A DNA stretch of 39,599 nt from a bacterium (GTDB lineage: Bacteria; Vulcanimicrobiota; Vulcanimicrobiia; Vulcanimicrobiales; Vulcanimicrobiaceae): assembly GCA_021786705.1 (NCBI GenBank), contig JAJYMV010000134.1, positions 1-39,599 on the forward strand, written 5' to 3'. A model generated the notes under the pieces. It did no database searches. It was not told where the DNA came from and was given only the letters and a program-made list of their open reading frames with translations. Made by a program: the position numbers and the translations under genes. Shown piece by piece: positions 21,247 to 32,545 of this stretch. Numbering within the stretch: position 1 is the first letter of the stretch; the number at the start of each line of letters is the position of its first letter.

Positions 21247-22249
21247 GCCGCGTATTGCCGTCGATGCGATGGGTGGAGACCGCGCCCCGGAGGAGGTCGT
21301 CGCGGGCGCCTTGCTCGCCGTCGAAGCCTTCGGCGCCAACATCGTCCTCGTCGGCGATGAGGCGCGCATACGCCCACTGCTGGGAGGAAGCGCGAGCGAT
21401 CGCGTTGCCGTCGTTCACGCCCCCGAGGCGGTGCCGATGGATCAACATGCCTCGCAGGCGCTGCGCGGCGCCGACCGGACCTCGCTCGGGAGGGCGATCG
21501 AACTCGTGAAATCCGGTGAGGCCGACGGCGTCGTCTCGGCTGGGAATAGCGGCGCCTTTCTCGCCATCTCGTTGGTAAAACTCCGCACCATCGAGGGGAT
21601 CGCGCGCCCGGCGATCGCGACGGTCTGGCCCGCGCTCAACGGCCCGTCGGTCCTCCTCGATTCGGGAGCGAACGTCGATTGTCGACCGGAATGGCTCGTC
21701 CAGTTCGGTATCATGGGGAGCGCCTACGCGCGCGCCGCTTTGGGAATCGAACGCCCGCGCGTGGGCATTCTCTCCATCGGCGAGGAACGCACCAAAGGGA
21801 ACGCCGCTGTGCTCGAGGCCGCCGCGCTGCTCGATCGAGCGCCGCTCCATTTCATCGGCAACATCGAAGGAAAAGATATGTTCCATAACGTCGCCGACGT
21901 CATCGTCGCCGATGGATTTGTCGGCAATGTCGTGCTCAAGGCGTGCGAGGGAATGATCGGCGATCTTGGATCGGTGATGAAGAAGGAGGTGCTCGGCGGC
22001 GGGCTCATGGCCAAGCTCGGCGCCGCCCTGCTCCTACCGCGGTTGCGCGGATTGCGCAAGCGCTACGATTACGAGACCTATGGCGGAGCTCCGCTGCTCG
22101 GGCTCCGAGGGAATTGCATCGTTTCGCACGGTCGCATCAGCCGAAACGGCATCAAGCATGCTATTCGCGCCGCGATCGAAGAAACGCGCGCCGACGTCGT
22201 CGGCAAGATCGGTCAACTCGTCGCCGGAGAGATGGTAACAAAAGTTTAA
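21239..22249 (+). CDS. plsX: Phosphate acyltransferase PlsX
   Basis: IAVDAMGGDRAPEEVVAGALLA; VSAGNSGAFLA; VLLDSGANVDCRPEWLVQFGIMGSAYA; EGKDMFHNVADVIVADGFVGNVVLK. Confidence 0.96.
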   Translation: MSEPRIAVDAMGGDRAPEEVVAGALLAVEAFGANIVLVGDEARIRPLLGGSASDRVAVVHAPEAVPMDQHASQALRGADRTSLGRAIELVKSGEADGVVSAGNSGAFLAISLVKLRTIEGIARPAIATVWPALNGPSVLLDSGANVDCRPEWLVQFGIMGSAYARAALGIERPRVGILSIGEERTKGNAAVLEAAALLDRAPLHFIGNIEGKDMFHNVADVIVADGFVGNVVLKACEGMIGDLGSVMKKEVLGGGLMAKLGAALLLPRLRGLRKRYDYETYGGAPLLGLRGNCIVSHGRISRNGIKHAIRAAIEETRADVVGKIGQLVAGEMVTKV

Positions 22250-23130
22250 TGCCGATTCACGTCGTTACCGATAGTACCGCCGATATCGATCCGGCGCGTG
22301 CGGCCGAACTCGGCGTAACGGTCGTGCCGCTTTTCGTCGTCTTCGGCAACGAATCGCTTCGCGATTACATCGATATCTCGCGACCGCAATTTTTCGAACG
22401 GCTCGGGCACGACCCGATATTGCCGACCACTTCTCAGCCGAGTGCGGCGATGTTTGAAGAGGCTTTCGCGCCGGCGGCCGCACGCGGTGAGGATATCCTC
22501 TGCGTTACGATCTCGTCGGTGCTCTCGGGAACGATCAATGCCGCGAGAGCCGCCGCCGAGCGTATCGCGGGCGTGCGCGTCGACCTCTTCGATTCGATGA
22601 ACGCCGCCGGCGGGTTGCAATTTTTCGTCGAAGATGCGGCGCGCATGGCGGCCGCCGGTGCTTCGATGGAGGATATTCTTCGTCACCTCACCACCATGCG
22701 AGAGCGGACGCCGCTCTACGCGACCCTGCCGGATCTCTCGCACGTACAGCGCACCGGGCGCATCGGTCGGGCAGCCGCAGTCCTCGGCGGGCTGATGAAA
22801 ATCGTTCCCATCCTCACGCTCGATGCGGGTGCGGTCGTCTCTCGCTCGCAGGTGCGAACCTTCAAGCGCGCGCAAGAAACGATGGTCGATCTCATCTGCT
22901 CCGACGAGAAGGGCTCGGCTCCGGCTCGCTTTCGCGTCATCCATACGCAGGCACCCGAACTCGCGACACAGATGCGGGACCGCATCGTCGAGCGGAATGC
23001 CGGGCGCGATATTTCGGTCGATATCGTCGAGGCGGGTCCGGTGATTGCGGTGCATGCCGGAGCCGGAGCGATCGGGGTCGTCGCAACCGATACTTTTAGC
23101 GATCTGCATATGGTCCGTGGTACTCAATAA
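22249..23130 (+). CDS. DegV family protein (FakB-like), copy 1
   Basis: MPIHVVTDSTADIDPARAAELGVTVVPLFVVFGNESLRDYIDIS; SSVLSGTINAAR. Confidence 0.9.
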   Translation: MPIHVVTDSTADIDPARAAELGVTVVPLFVVFGNESLRDYIDISRPQFFERLGHDPILPTTSQPSAAMFEEAFAPAAARGEDILCVTISSVLSGTINAARAAAERIAGVRVDLFDSMNAAGGLQFFVEDAARMAAAGASMEDILRHLTTMRERTPLYATLPDLSHVQRTGRIGRAAAVLGGLMKIVPILTLDAGAVVSRSQVRTFKRAQETMVDLICSDEKGSAPARFRVIHTQAPELATQMRDRIVERNAGRDISVDIVEAGPVIAVHAGAGAIGVVATDTFSDLHMVRGTQ

Positions 23131-23145
23131 AAGAGGGAGATTTTC

Positions 23146-23994
23146 ATGTCCGTCACCGTGGTTACCGATAGCACTTGCGATATGTCGCGCGAAATGGCGG
23201 CAAAATACGGAATCGTCCAGGTTCCGCTCTACGTTATTTGGGGGAACGAGCGCTTCCGCGACGGCGTCGATATCACGATGACGGAATTCCATCGCCGATT
23301 GATGAGCTCGAAGGAGAACCCGATCACCGAAGAACCTTCGAGCGACGAGTTCGCCGCCGTATTTCAAAAAGAGATCGATGCGGGGCGCGAAGTGATCTGC
23401 CCGACGATCGGAGCGAAGCTCTCGAAGACCTTCGAATCGGCGAGCGCCGCCGCGCGGCAATTTCCCGGCAAAGTGGAAGTCGTCGACACCGAGACCTTTT
23501 CGGGTGGATTGGCGCTGCACGCGATGCTCGCGGCCGAACTCGCGAGGGCCGGGGTCCCGTTAAAAGAAATCGCGGCGCGACTGCGCGCGAAGCTGGCGAC
23601 CCAGCGCGGCAACATGGTGCTCCCCGACGTCACCTTCCTCGGCCGAAGCGGGCGTTTGAACAAAGCCGTCGTCTCGCTCGCGCAGATGATGCGCTTGAGC
23701 CCGATCCTCCAACTCAACCACGGGGTAGCGGAGTCGGCGACGCAAACGAACGATTTCGAAAAATCGCGACGTCAACTCATCAGTATTGCATTGCGTAGTC
23801 TGGAGAACACTTCGAAGATTCGTTTTATGGTCGGTGCGGTCGATGCGCCGGAGCTGGCCGCAGAGTTCGAAAAGGAGATCCGCGAAAAATTAATTGGCGG
23901 CTGCGAGTCGCTCTACGTCTACGCGTGCGGCCCGGTAGTCGCCACGAACTCCGGCCCGCGAGCGTGCGCCGTGTTCTCGATGCCGATTGACTGA
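23146..23994 (+). CDS. DegV family protein (FakB-like), copy 2
   Basis: MSVTVVTDSTCDMSREMAAKYGIVQVPLYVIWGNERFRDGVDIT; GNMVLPDVTFLGRSGRLNKA. Confidence 0.9.
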   Translation: MSVTVVTDSTCDMSREMAAKYGIVQVPLYVIWGNERFRDGVDITMTEFHRRLMSSKENPITEEPSSDEFAAVFQKEIDAGREVICPTIGAKLSKTFESASAAARQFPGKVEVVDTETFSGGLALHAMLAAELARAGVPLKEIAARLRAKLATQRGNMVLPDVTFLGRSGRLNKAVVSLAQMMRLSPILQLNHGVAESATQTNDFEKSRRQLISIALRSLENTSKIRFMVGAVDAPELAAEFEKEIREKLIGGCESLYVYACGPVVATNSGPRACAVFSMPID

Positions 23995-25129: not shown

Positions 25130-26214
25130 AAACGACGAATCTCTCCTCGACGCTCCTGCGCGCGATCTTCGCGATTCTTTTTGCGGTCGCCGGTTTTCTC
25201 GTCGGACAAGAGGCCTATCTTCGCGTCCTCACGTTCCATACCGCCGGCTCGGGCGTGCAGATTCTTTTGGATATCGGCGCCTCGGTCGTCGGCGCGGTCG
25301 TGGGGATCTTCCTCGCACCGGTCGCGCAGTCGCTCTTTGAAGAAGAAGCACGCGCGGTCGAGCGCTCGGTCGAACGGCTCGCCCCCTCCGAACTCGTCGG
25401 CGGAGCCGCCGGACTGATCGTCGGCTTGGTGATAGCCTATCTCACCAAGAGCATCTTTTTCGAATTCGTCGGCGTCGCGGGAAAGACGGGCAGCCTGGTA
25501 GCGATTCTCGTCTACCTCGTCGTCGCGATGTTTATCGCCTACCTCGGCGCGCGTATCGGCGCGAAGCTGCGCATCGTTCCCCTGCCGCCCTCGCTCGTTT
25601 CCGGGCTCTCGCCGAAGGTGCTCGATACATCGGTGATCGTCGACGGCCGTATCGTCGAAGCGATCAAGAGCGGTTTCCTCGAAGGCCCGTTCGTGCTCCC
25701 GCGCTTCGTGTTGCGCGAGCTCCAGCAAATCGCCGACTCCGCAGATGCGCTGAAACGCGCGCGCGGGCGGCGCGGCCTCGACGTGCTCGGCCGCTTGCAG
25801 GAAGTCGCCGGGCTCGAAGTGGTCGACCGCGATTACCCCGAACTCGCGCCGGGAAACGTCGATGCAAAGCTCGTTCGCTACGCTCGCGAGTTCGGCGCGA
25901 AAATCGTCACGAACGATTACAATCTGCAGCGCGTCGCGCGGGTGGAGAACGTGATGACGCTCAATCTTCACGAACTGACCGCGGCGCTCAAGCCCGTCGT
26001 ATTGCCGGGTGAAGAGATGCGCGTGCACGTCGTTCGCGAAGGGAAAGAACCGCACCAGGGCGTTGCCTATCTCGACGATGGTACGATGGTGGTCGTCGAA
26101 CGCGCGCGCCGATACCTCGGCGACCGGCTCGACGTTATCGTGACCAGCGTGTTGCAAACCGTTTCGGGGCGGATGATCTTCGCACGCCCGAAAGGCGAGG
26201 AGAACGAGGAGTGA
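25126..26214 (+). CDS. PIN/TRAM domain membrane protein, YacL-like
   Basis: Four N-terminal TMs, then KVLDTSVIVDGRIVEAIKSGFLEGPFVLPRFVLRELQQIADS (PIN), KIVTNDYNLQRVA, TRAM domain GVAYLDDGTMVVVERARRYLG. Confidence 0.92.
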   Translation: MKTTNLSSTLLRAIFAILFAVAGFLVGQEAYLRVLTFHTAGSGVQILLDIGASVVGAVVGIFLAPVAQSLFEEEARAVERSVERLAPSELVGGAAGLIVGLVIAYLTKSIFFEFVGVAGKTGSLVAILVYLVVAMFIAYLGARIGAKLRIVPLPPSLVSGLSPKVLDTSVIVDGRIVEAIKSGFLEGPFVLPRFVLRELQQIADSADALKRARGRRGLDVLGRLQEVAGLEVVDRDYPELAPGNVDAKLVRYAREFGAKIVTNDYNLQRVARVENVMTLNLHELTAALKPVVLPGEEMRVHVVREGKEPHQGVAYLDDGTMVVVERARRYLGDRLDVIVTSVLQTVSGRMIFARPKGEENEE

Positions 26215-26918
26215 TGCGGTGGGGTGCGTTGGTGGTCGCCGCGGGTGAGGGGCGCCGTTTCGGCGGCTTCAAACAACTCGTGGAGATCGCCGGTCGCCCA
26301 ATGCTTGCGTGGTCGCTCGAAGCGATCGCGGCGGTGCCGGCATTCTCGGTCGTCGCGGTGGTGACGGCACCTGCGGCGTACGACGATGTCGAGCGCGTCG
26401 CGCGACCGATTCTCGGCGAACGGCTCGCGCCGCTCGTCGAAGGCGGCGCGACGCGCCAAGAGAGCGTTCGCAATGGGTTGCGCGCCGTCGCCGAACGCTG
26501 CGATGCGCTCGCGATCCACGATGGCGCACGCCCCTGCGTGCGCGCAGACGAGATCGAAGCCGGAATGCGCGAGGTCGCACCGGGGCGTGCGGCGCTGCTC
26601 GCGACGCGCATCGTCGACACGCTTAAAAGGACCGATGAGAACTCGATGCTCGTTCGTGAGACCGTCGCGCGCGAGCACCTCTGGGGGGCGCAGACGCCGC
26701 AATTCGCAACCGTTGCCGACCTGCTCGCGGCGCACGAACGTGCCGCCGCTGCGGGAGTCGCCGCGACCGACGACATCGCGCTGCTGGAAACGATCGGGGT
26801 GCGCTGCACGATCGTTCCATCGAGCCCGGAGAATCTGAAAGTGACGCAGCAGAGCGACCGCGAACTCGCGGCGGCGATCCTTCGCGCACGCACCGCGCGC
26901 CTCGGTGTGCCGCGATGA
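26211..26918 (+). CDS. ispD: 2-C-methyl-D-erythritol 4-phosphate cytidylyltransferase
   Basis: ALVVAAGEGRRFGGFKQLVEIAGRPMLAWSLEA; GGATRQESVRNGL; IHDGARPCV; QTPQFA; ATDDIALLE. Confidence 0.94.
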   Translation: MMRWGALVVAAGEGRRFGGFKQLVEIAGRPMLAWSLEAIAAVPAFSVVAVVTAPAAYDDVERVARPILGERLAPLVEGGATRQESVRNGLRAVAERCDALAIHDGARPCVRADEIEAGMREVAPGRAALLATRIVDTLKRTDENSMLVRETVAREHLWGAQTPQFATVADLLAAHERAAAAGVAATDDIALLETIGVRCTIVPSSPENLKVTQQSDRELAAAILRARTARLGVPR

Positions 26919-27397
26919 TGCGGGTCGGACATGGCTTCGACGCCCACCGGCTCGTTCTCGGTCGTCGGCTCGTGCTGGGGGGCGTCGAGATTCCCAGCGA
27001 CCGGGGGGCGCTCGGACACTCCGATGCCGACGCCCTCGCGCATGCCGTCGCCGACGCCCTGCTGGGATCGCTCGCCCTCGGTGACCTCGGGCAGCATTTC
27101 CCCGATAGCGATCCCCAGTGGAAGGATGCCGATTCGCTGGAATTATTGGCGGCCTGCGTCGCGCTCGTTCGGACGCGCGGCTACCGTGTCGGCAACCTGG
27201 ATGCGACCATCGTCGTAGAACGTCCGCGTCTCGCGGCGTTCACTGAGACGATGCGTTGCAACCTTGCCGCTCGATGCGGCGTCGATGCGAGTGCCGTGAG
27301 TGTGAAAGCAAAGAGTAGCGAGGGAATGGGATATACCGGAGACGGGACGGGGATCGCCGTCTATGCCGTTGCGACCGTCGAGTCGCTCGCATCGTGA
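26915..27397 (+). CDS. ispF: 2-C-methyl-D-erythritol 2,4-cyclodiphosphate synthase
   Basis: RVGHGFDAHRLVLGRRLVLGGVEIPSDRGALGHSDADALAHAVADALLGSLALGDLGQHFPDSD; KAKSSEGMGYTG. Confidence 0.96.
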   Translation: MMRVGHGFDAHRLVLGRRLVLGGVEIPSDRGALGHSDADALAHAVADALLGSLALGDLGQHFPDSDPQWKDADSLELLAACVALVRTRGYRVGNLDATIVVERPRLAAFTETMRCNLAARCGVDASAVSVKAKSSEGMGYTGDGTGIAVYAVATVESLAS

Positions 27398-27939
27398 GCC
27401 CGAAGGTCCTCGCGCTCGCGCGCCGCATGCAGGAGTGGGGGCTCCTCGAAACGCCGGCCCCCGACGCGGCGTTGCGTTGGATCGAGACCTTCCTCCAGGC
27501 CTATGGCGAGCGCGTCGCCGATCTCGACCTCGCGCGCCCGCTGGTGCTCGCGCTCCGCGCGGAGTCGTGCGTCGTGCCGGCGTTGGAACTGGAGCGACTC
27601 CGTTCGCGTGAGGTGCTTTTCTTTCTCGATGCCGTCGGACAATATGTCGACGCGCAACCCGAATTGCGCGGCCTCCCGCTCGCCCACGATCTCGCGGCGA
27701 TCGGCGAGGAGTTTGGTTTGAGCGCGCGCGATACATTCGATAGCGTTCGCATGGCGCTCACCGGCGTGCGCGACGATGTTCCGCTCGAGGCGCTCTTTCC
27801 GCTCCTCGGCCACGATCGTATTTTGATTCGTATCGGCGCGATCAACGCGCGCCTTTTGCACGGGCGCGGCTTGGAACCGATCGCGTTCGGCCCCGGCGGC
27901 GCGCCCTTCGAACCGATTCACGGAAAGCGGCCCTCGTAA
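27394..27939 (+). CDS. Free-standing GluRS-type C-terminal anticodon-binding domain (no catalytic domain)
   Basis: 181 aa; PLAHDLAAIGEEFGLSARDTFDSVRMALTGVRDDVPLEALFPLLGHDRILIRIGAINARLL matches the GltX C-terminal pattern (lR-AltG...P-lfe-l-llGke--l-Ri); occupies the gltX position between ispF and cysE. Confidence 0.8.
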   Translation: MSPKVLALARRMQEWGLLETPAPDAALRWIETFLQAYGERVADLDLARPLVLALRAESCVVPALELERLRSREVLFFLDAVGQYVDAQPELRGLPLAHDLAAIGEEFGLSARDTFDSVRMALTGVRDDVPLEALFPLLGHDRILIRIGAINARLLHGRGLEPIAFGPGGAPFEPIHGKRPS

Positions 27940-28619
27940 TGGGATTATTGAAGACGATCGCCGCGGATTTTCGCGCGCCGTTACAACGCGATCCCGCGGT
28001 CCGCGGAGCGCTCGACGTGCTGCTCTCCTATCCCGGATTCCACGCACTGTTCGCGCACCGGTTTATCCACGTACTGCACGGCTGGGGCATCCCGCTCCTC
28101 CCGCGTTGGCTCGCGCATATCGTGCGTTTTCTCACCGGGATCGAAATCCATCCGGGAGCGACGATCGGCACCGGCGTCTTCATCGATCACGGAATGGGCG
28201 TGGTGATCGGCGAGACGGCGGAGATCGGCGACGATTGCACCATCTATCAGGGCGTCACGCTCGGCGGCACGAGCCTCTCGCACGGGAAACGCCACCCGAC
28301 GCTCGATCGGAACGTCGTCGTCGGCGTCAACGCGGCGGTGCTCGGCGCGATCACGATCGGAGAGAATACGAAAATCGGCGGCGGATCGGTGGTCGTCCGC
28401 GACGTTCCCGCCAACGCGGTCGTCGTCGGCGTTCCGGGACGGGTCGTGTTCATCGACGGAGAACCCGTACGAAACGCGAACGAACCACCGCGCGTCGTCA
28501 TGCCCGATCCCGATGCGGTGCAGATCGCGCAATTACAGACCCGCGTCGCCCAACTCGAGGGGCGCCTGCGGGCGCTCGAACGTTCGCAAGGAAACGACGA
28601 TGCCGCTGCAGCTCTATAA
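27939..28619 (+). CDS. cysE: Serine O-acetyltransferase
   Basis: GIEIHPGATIGTGVFIDHGMGVVIGETAEIGDDCTIYQGVTLGGTSLSHGKRHPTL left-handed beta-helix hexapeptides. Confidence 0.95.
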   Translation: MGLLKTIAADFRAPLQRDPAVRGALDVLLSYPGFHALFAHRFIHVLHGWGIPLLPRWLAHIVRFLTGIEIHPGATIGTGVFIDHGMGVVIGETAEIGDDCTIYQGVTLGGTSLSHGKRHPTLDRNVVVGVNAAVLGAITIGENTKIGGGSVVVRDVPANAVVVGVPGRVVFIDGEPVRNANEPPRVVMPDPDAVQIAQLQTRVAQLEGRLRALERSQGNDDAAAAL

Positions 28620-30057
28620 TACCCGTACTCGCCGGGTCGAGCCGTTCCAACCGCGCCGCGATGGGCGCGTTTCGATTTATGTCTGCGGGCTCACGCCTTC
28701 GGCGCAGGCGCACCTCGGGCACGCACGCTCCTTTCTCTTTTTCGATATCCTCCGTCGCTATCTGACGTTTTCGGGGTACGATGTGACCTACGTTCAAAAC
28801 GTCACCGATATCGACGATCGCAGCATCGCCGCGGCACATCGGCTCGGTGTCTCGTGGCGAGAGATCGTCGACGGCTATTACGCGGAGTTCAAGCGTTCGA
28901 TGCGGCGTCTCGGCGTGCGCGAACCCGATAAGGAACCCTACGCGACGGAGTTCATTCCGGAAATTCGCGAGACGATCGTGGCCTTGATCGAACGTGGCTA
29001 CGCCTACGTGGCGAGCGACGGTATCTATTATCGCGTCGGAAAATTCGAACGGTACGGCGCGCTCTCCAATCGAAATATCGCCGAGCTCGAAGCGGGCGCC
29101 CGTATCGAAATCGACGAGGCGAAAGAGGAACCGCTCGATTTTGCGCTCTGGAAATTTGCGAAGCCCGGCGAACCGCATTGGCCGTTCGAACCCTACGGCG
29201 ATGGGCGGCCGGGATGGCATATCGAGTGCTCGGCGATGTCGCACGCCTTGCTCGACCCGGAGGGGACGGGCTTCGATATCCACGGCGGCGGCGCCGATCT
29301 CATTTTTCCCCATCACGAAAACGAAATCGCGCAGAGCGAGCCGTTGATGGCGCAGCCGCCGATGGCGAAGTTCTGGTTGCACGGCGGGTTGTTGCTTTTC
29401 GACAATCGCAAGATGAGCAAATCGCTCGGGAATTTCGAGCCGCTCTGCGACGTGCTCGATCGCTACGATCCGCAGGCGATTCGGTTGCTGTTCTTGCGGA
29501 CCGGCTACGGAAAAGTCATGAACTTCACCGACGAAGCGATGTCGGGGGCCGAGGCCACGCTCGAGCGGCTCCGCCGCGATTATCGCGCCCTCCACGCCGT
29601 GGCGGGCAGCGCGAACGGCTCCGTTCGCGAAGGCGGCGCGTTGACCGCGCGCGTCGTTGCGGCGCTCGACGACGACATGAATACCGCCGCGGCGCTGCGC
29701 GAGGTTCTCGCTGCGGCAGGCAATAGCGCGACCGAGGGCGCCGCGCAGCGGTTGGCGGAACTTCGAAACGCACTGACGCTGCTTGGAATCGAGCCCGACG
29801 AACGATGGCTCGCCGAACCGGAGGCGCTCCCGTTACCTTCGGAGCTCGCGGCGGCGCTGCGCGGCGAGATCGGCGAACCCTGGCTCGACGGGATCGAGGA
29901 TGCACGGTCCGCGCTCGAACGAGTGATCGCGGAACGGCTCGCCGCACGCGCCGGCAAGGATTGGGCGCGCAGCGACCGGTTACGCGATGCGTTACTGCGT
30001 TGCGGCATCGAAATTCAAGATGGTAAGGAGGGTTCGGTATGGAGCGTCGTCCGATAG
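28600..30057 (+). CDS. cysS: Cysteinyl-tRNA synthetase
   Basis: [14 protein letters not shown]...[70 protein letters not shown]. Confidence 0.95.
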
Positions 30058-32074: not shown

Positions 32075-32150
32075 TGGAGCCGACGGTGGGACTCGAACCC
32101 ACGATTGGCAGTTTACAAAACTGCTGCTGTAGCCGCTGAGCCACGTCGGC
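32075..32150 (-). tRNA. tRNA-Thr (anticodon TGT), CCA encoded
   Basis: Reverse strand GCCGACGTGGCTCAGCGGCTACAGCAGCAGTTTTGTAAACTGC...GTGGGTTCGAGTCCCACCGTCGGCTCCA; cloverleaf by eye. Confidence 0.95.
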
Positions 32151-32165
32151 GGAGAGCGGCAGCTT

Positions 32166-32226
32166 CCACGCCTCTCGCACGCCCCCTCCGCACGACCCGG
32201 GGAGAGAGGAGCGGGCGTGGATTTTT
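32166..32226 (+). terminator. Possible hairpin plus T-tract between the two tRNA units
   Basis: CCACGCC (32166-32172) pairs with GGCGTGG (32214-32220), followed by ATTTTT; long loop, so weak. Confidence 0.3.
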
Positions 32227-32237
32227 GACGGTAGTCG

Positions 32238-32266
32238 TTGCGAGGAGTCTTGGGGTTTGATATCGT
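32238..32266 (+). promoter_or_regulatory. Candidate promoter of the tRNA-Tyr/Gly/Thr unit
   Basis: TTGCGA (32238-32243), 17-bp spacer, TATCGT (32261-32266) with extended -10 TGA; about 30 bp upstream of tRNA-Tyr. Confidence 0.45.
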
Positions 32267-32297
32267 ACCGTCCGGAGCCGTCGGCAGACGGTCGCGT

Positions 32298-32385
32298 GGG
32301 TAGGTGGTCGAGTGGTTAAAGGCACCGGACTGTAAATTCGGCGCGCGAAAGCGCTACGCTGGTTCGAATCCAGCCCTGCCCACCA
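32298..32385 (+). tRNA. tRNA-Tyr (anticodon GTA), long variable arm, CCA encoded
   Basis: GGGTAGGTGGTCGAGTGGTTAAAGGCACCGGACTGTAAATTCGGCGCGCGAAAGCGCTACGCTGGTTCGAATCCAGCCCTGCCCACCA. Confidence 0.96.
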
Positions 32386-32386
32386 C

Positions 32387-32460
32387 GCGGGCGTTGCATA
32401 GTGGTAGTGCTTCTGCCTTCCAAGCAGACAGCGCGGGTTCGATTCCCGCCGCCCGCTCCA
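32387..32460 (+). tRNA. tRNA-Gly (anticodon TCC), CCA encoded
   Basis: GCGGGCGTTGCATAGTGGTAGTGCTTCTGCCTTCCAAGCAGACAGCGCGGGTTCGATTCCCGCCGCCCGCTCCA. Confidence 0.96.
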
Positions 32461-32470
32461 AAGAAACGAC

Positions 32471-32545
32471 GCCGTTGTAGCTCAGTGGTAGAGCACGTCC
32501 TTGGTAAGGACGAGGTCATGGGTTCAATCCCCATCAACGGCTCCA
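32471..32545 (+). tRNA. tRNA-Thr (anticodon GGT), CCA encoded
   Basis: GCCGTTGTAGCTCAGTGGTAGAGCACGTCCTTGGTAAGGACGAGGTCATGGGTTCAATCCCCATCAACGGCTCCA. Confidence 0.96.

Follow-up and report, generated by a model that had tools for sequence, protein, structure and literature searches.

GluQ-RS (YadB) is a stand-alone half of glutamyl-tRNA synthetase (GluRS, GltX) that has turned into a separate protein. It keeps the catalytic half and lacks the anticodon-binding (AC) domain. The protein described here is the reverse, an AC domain on its own, and so is not a GluQ-RS. HisZ, AlaX, PoxA and proteins of the Trbp111/Arc1p type resemble it in being aminoacyl-tRNA synthetase (aaRS) domains domesticated as free-standing proteins (PMC9437257, together with general background), but they are unrelated folds or catalytic domains and none is a bacterial GluRS AC domain. 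We came across no description of a GluRS AC domain as a protein of its own in the literature searched, which lay mostly outside subscription journals. There are also bacteria with two GluRSs. In H. pylori and A. ferrooxidans GluRS2 is specific for tRNA-Gln (PMC3927822). The protein that we call GltX-B is like GluRS2 in being one of two GluRSs, in having GatCAB and no GlnRS around it, and in lacking the arginine of Thermus position 358. Unlike GluRS2 the orphan has no catalytic half, and the tRNA specificities given here for the Eremiobacterota are predictions from sequence. A non-charging GluRS paralogue that sits beside an active GluRS is known as well. It is comparable to the eroded GltX-B discussed below, but it is full-length, and its reduction to an AC-only protein is not reported for that paralogue in the literature searched.

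The window is a stretch of 39,599 nucleotides (contig JAJYMV010000134.1 of assembly GCA_021786705.1) from a member of the Vulcanimicrobiaceae. The initial annotation described an intact reading frame of 181 aa between ispF and cysE with an AC domain and no catalytic half, and we confirm this. The features of the locus are as follows.

26211..26918, + strand: ispD, upstream, in the same operon as the orphan
26915..27397, + strand: ispF, overlapping the orphan start (GTGA)
27394..27939, + strand: stand-alone GluRS anticodon-binding-domain protein, evidently a GltX-B remnant, 181 aa
27418..27840, + strand: Anticodon_2-like domain of the orphan, residues 9-149, all-helical (secondary structure from a low-confidence model)
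27841..27936, + strand: conserved C-terminal tail of the orphan, LLHGRGLEPIxxGPxGxPFxxI, residues 150-181, outside the Pfam domain
27939..28619, + strand: cysE, overlapping the orphan stop (TAATG)
28600..30057, + strand: cysS, downstream, in the same operon as the orphan

The reading frame is intact. Its GTG start lies in the GTGA overlap with the ispF stop, and its stop shares TAATG with the start of cysE at 27939. The gene is closely joined to its neighbours at both ends, and the initial annotation had placed it in a tight operon with cysE and cysS. The 181 residues consist of the AC domain (about 9-149) and a short tail. There is no Rossmann catalytic domain, HIGH or KMSKS, as the initial annotation had said, and tblastn found no catalytic-half remnant upstream at 28 orphan loci. 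That annotation placed the GltX AC domain in the second half of the protein. The homology stands but the placement does not, since the domain takes up everything except the tail. Elsewhere in the window there is a cluster of four tRNAs at 32075-32545 (Thr-TGT, Tyr-GTA, Gly-TCC, Thr-GGT), and adjacent genes at 22246-23130 and 23146-23994 appear by eye to encode paralogous DegV-family proteins.

Pfam Anticodon_2 (PF19269) matches residues 9-148 of the window's orphan over profile positions 3-138 of 141, with 19.4 bits, which is below the gathering cut-off of 23.6 bits. Stand-alone orthologues from other genera are above it (45.6, 37.8, 37.4, 35.1, 28.7, 26.1 and 26.0 bits), as is the copy of Vulcanimicrobium alpinum (24.6 bits). 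The profile comparison with GluRS AC domains that had been suggested as a check gave a match. Aligned by hhalign with A-type GltX, the orphan profile reached a probability of 95.6 (E 1.2e-8), with query 30-149 on GltX columns 356-478. Homology to the C-terminal AC domain of GltX is carried by this alignment and by the nesting of the orphan within the GltX-B AC clade. PDB searches with the orphan (phmmer, hmmsearch) ranked GluRS chains first with weak E-values. Two AlphaFold models had low confidence (pLDDT 55-56). Foldseek found no significant match for them, and the top hit was GluRS at E 2.3. It must be noted that the second structure-prediction alignment included L052, a chance match inside an apparent alcohol dehydrogenase reading frame, and that A1 comprised the true orphans plus the AC domains of a full-length B fragment (L045) and of pseudo-B (L046, L048, L049).

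Stand-alone homologues occur in most genera of the Vulcanimicrobiaceae, soil and peat bacteria of the phylum Eremiobacterota. The domain model matches 70 of 99 family genomes. Full-length or pseudo-B account for 13 of these, which leaves about 57 with the stand-alone form, some inspected by hand and others counted by model match only. This spread in relatives had been proposed as a check, and it includes a closed genome, that of V. alpinum WC8-2. This strain was the first of the phylum to be brought into culture (PMC9758169), and its closed chromosome (G017) carries a stand-alone orphan of 201 aa at L165:6488-7093. That copy no longer adjoins ispF or cysE, and cysS directly follows it. A large gene with an apparent LuxR-type C-terminus (L165:3541-6612, - strand) lies between ispF and the orphan there, and the ancestral operon is broken. 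No orphan matches were found in plasmids.

Families f2 and f3 have two full-length gltX genes. GltX-A lies beside glmU, and GltX-B lies in an ispF-gltX-cysE-cysS slot. In f1, the family of the window, the basal genomes G013, G034 and G082 have a full-length B together with an old-type A, and the same is found in G014 and G031. The B of G034 spans two contigs and that of G082 has a frame break. The ancestral state of the class is evidently two gltX genes, a glmU-linked A and a B in the ispF-cysE slot. In a tree of AC domains the orphans fall inside the slot-B clade and adjoin the full-length B of G013, G034 and G082. The orphan shares both the locus and the closest AC domain with the family's own full-length B, and by these marks it is the remnant of a second glutamyl-tRNA synthetase. 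The slot between ispF and cysE is then evidently the inherited gltX-B position. The link to these genes was rejected as evidence of function, since it is ancestral gene order and the neighbours differ in V. alpinum. The earlier suggestion of a regulator tied to cysteine and isoprenoid genes is not supported.

An intermediate is found in g9, the genus of V. alpinum. Eight of its genomes have a full-length B in which KLSKR is eroded, and in some HVG is eroded too. These full-length pseudo-GluRS loci are L150-L156 and L168 (G111, G112, G113, G114, G120, G116, G118 and G115). Their catalytic domain groups with the B of f1 and f2, which implies that the pseudo-B was inherited. The eroded B is evidently a pseudo-synthetase intermediate between the active enzyme and the orphan. 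All the stages are seen in living relatives: active enzyme, dead full-length enzyme and domain alone. The g9 pseudo-synthetases are placed deep among the orphans in the AC-domain tree. This requires several truncations, unless one lineage regained the catalytic half by recombination. We argue that the catalytic half of B was probably lost several times; if the better-supported nodes are counted, the minimum is four.

The initial annotation asked whether there is a gltX elsewhere in the genome with its own AC domain. There is one full-length gltX in the window genome, on contig C150 beside glmU, and it has its own AC domain (100 bits). The best PDB match of this enzyme, A*, is 5tgt GltX (597 bits), which we take to be from Pseudomonas aeruginosa. 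In genomes with a B remnant, A has evidently been replaced by this proteobacterial-type GluRS. A* (G000:C150:10983-12386, and the glmU-linked gltX of other orphan carriers) looks xenologous, standing in place of the phylum's GltX-A. It has Tyr at the Thermus R435 position in 49 of 49 scorable sequences. The GltX of G114 (L190, G114:C18) is only 40% identical to A* and has no glmU match in the fetched stretch, so a second replacement is possible. The idea of a chimera in which the catalytic half of B moved onto A to give A* was not supported, as the AC domain of A* falls on the A side and the enzymes closest to A* are of the proteobacterial type.

A* is present and the orphan absent in genera g45 and g19 and in genomes G023, G030 and G121. 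In these genomes ispF adjoins cysE wherever both are visible. Several lineages have lost the orphan altogether, which means its task is dispensable; parsimony gives 5 changes, of which 3 are forced. Searches of the class turned up no GlnRS, and GatB occurs in nearly all of its genomes, so Gln-tRNA must be made via Glu-tRNA-Gln. A gain of GlnRS was considered as the cause of orphan loss in g45 and g19 and rejected, as neither has one. Two genomes from other families of the phylum have a full GlnRS plus GatB (G057:C194, G058:C36).

The orphan is under strong purifying selection. Its dN/dS within the genus is 0.06-0.15; ispF has comparable values (0.06-0.12), and those of cysE are a little lower (0.03-0.08). 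Across 24 genomes its median identity is 63.0%, against 52.9% for the AC domain that A* has in those genomes; it is the higher of the two in 247 of 276 pairs, which are non-independent. In active synthetases the catalytic domain is the more conserved in every pair, at 71-84% against 42-60% for AC in f3 B and 67-80% against 34-63% in A*. The g9 pseudo-synthetases have the reverse pattern, with 54-71% in the catalytic domain and 72-82% in AC (one near-identical pair excluded). Between the full-length B of G013 and that of G034 the AC domain is 74% identical, near the level of the catalytic domain. That its conservation is already unusually high there suggests that the new constraint arose before B ceased to be catalytic.

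Of 36 orphans, 34 keep the residue that matches Thermus R435 (R119) and all 36 keep the one that matches L447 (L131); both are presumably tRNA contacts. The position of Thermus Arg358 behaves differently among the groups. It is always Arg in A and A* (50 of 50 scorable sequences for A*), and His, Gly or Glu in full-length B. GltX-A would be of the tRNA-Glu type and GltX-B perhaps of the tRNA-Gln type. Orphans have R, G, Q, A, H or E there, Arg being commonest, so they have not all kept a strict reading of anticodon base 36. The tail and the block PALELERLRxRxVLFFLDxVxQYVDxQxELRxL are among the most conserved parts of the orphan. Both are missing from aligned f2 AC sequences except that of G040. 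Full-length B from G013 and from G034 has the tail too, and G012 retains the domain without it.

Several other explanations must be weighed. The genome is fragmented into 185 contigs, of which the window is one, and an assembly or frameshift artefact could have removed the catalytic half. We give this next to no credence. Dozens of assemblies made independently show this architecture, the closed V. alpinum chromosome among them, and there is no catalytic remnant upstream, which settles the check for frameshift or misassembly that had been proposed. It is also very improbable that the orphan is a decaying remnant without function that awaits deletion. The gene does derive from a degraded one and it has been lost in several lineages, but the selection data contradict decay. 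The frame is intact, it is present in most genera, its dN/dS is like that of ispF and its conservation exceeds that of the A* AC domain, so the original view that it is not decayed holds. Another early proposal was half of a split GluRS. That would call for a partner with a catalytic half and no AC domain, and the only GltX found is full-length and carries an AC domain itself. In several sister lineages the orphan is cleanly deleted, yet that single GluRS remains. Such outright deletion means the orphan is neither a split-GluRS half nor essential for charging tRNA-Gln, and we reject the proposal.

A related scenario is that the orphan presents tRNA-Gln to A*, yielding Glu-tRNA-Gln for GatCAB. 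Arg358 marks discrimination in Thermus, A* has this Arg and is closest to Pseudomonas GluRS, and the P. aeruginosa enzyme is reported to discriminate against tRNA-Gln (PMC3927822). GlnRS is absent, and the source protein B lacks Arg358 where it is full-length in the class. However, Arg358 alone is not decisive since H. pylori GluRS1 showed no such effect when this residue was mutated (PMC3927822), and A* carries its own AC domain. The lineages that have A* and neither orphan nor GlnRS mean that the orphan cannot be generally required for A* to handle tRNA-Gln. We consider the scenario unlikely. It is equally doubtful that a free-standing anticodon adaptor from a tRNA-Gln-type GluRS tunes or widens the tRNA choice of an acquired discriminating-type GluRS in trans; if true, two proteins would together solve Glu/Gln tRNA charging for a bacterium that lacks GlnRS. 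One can also imagine that the orphan no longer binds tRNA and is a small helical scaffold or regulator that docks through its tail (HGRGLEPI...GPxGxPFxxI) on, for example, GatCAB, A* or another translation factor. The high conservation of the tail and mid-domain block, their absence from nearly all aligned f2 AC domains and the unconserved base-36 position speak for this. Against it, the residues aligned with R435 and L447 are kept almost without exception, no partner gene was identified, and G012 has the domain without the tail. We regard this scaffold role, the chief alternative, as possible, although on the improbable side.

We argue, with somewhat better than even confidence, that the orphan is a domesticated remnant of GltX-B and a non-catalytic binding protein, most likely for the tRNA anticodon arm or RNA. 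The comparison shows a class ancestor with GltX-A and GltX-B and, in one family branch, the replacement of A by A*. In B the catalytic motifs went first and the whole catalytic half later, probably several times, while the AC domain and tail remained under strong purifying selection. We infer that the AC domain of B had taken on a further, non-catalytic task while B was still an active enzyme and that this task was retained, because in the full-length B of G013 and of G034 the domain already shows unusual conservation. Most likely the retained task of the free-standing protein would be to bind a tRNA anticodon arm or some related RNA; retention of the residues that match Thermus R435 and L447 speaks for this. 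The conserved tail may bind a protein partner as well. A* and GatCAB would make Gln-tRNA without the orphan. A role as a tRNA-binding trans factor, as first suggested, would be compatible with the data.

The orphan is best called a domesticated aaRS domain, reciprocal of GluQ-RS; this comparison was made in the initial annotation, and the AC-only architecture bears it out. Proteins derived from the catalytic half of an aaRS are well known. Here it is the opposite half that is independent and under strong selection, which suggests that this domain does something other than charging. Glu/Gln charging itself also becomes a question in a lineage that has no GlnRS and runs on a single proteobacterial-type GluRS with the discriminating Arg358. 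Since V. alpinum is in culture, the role of the orphan and Glu/Gln charging can both be tested.
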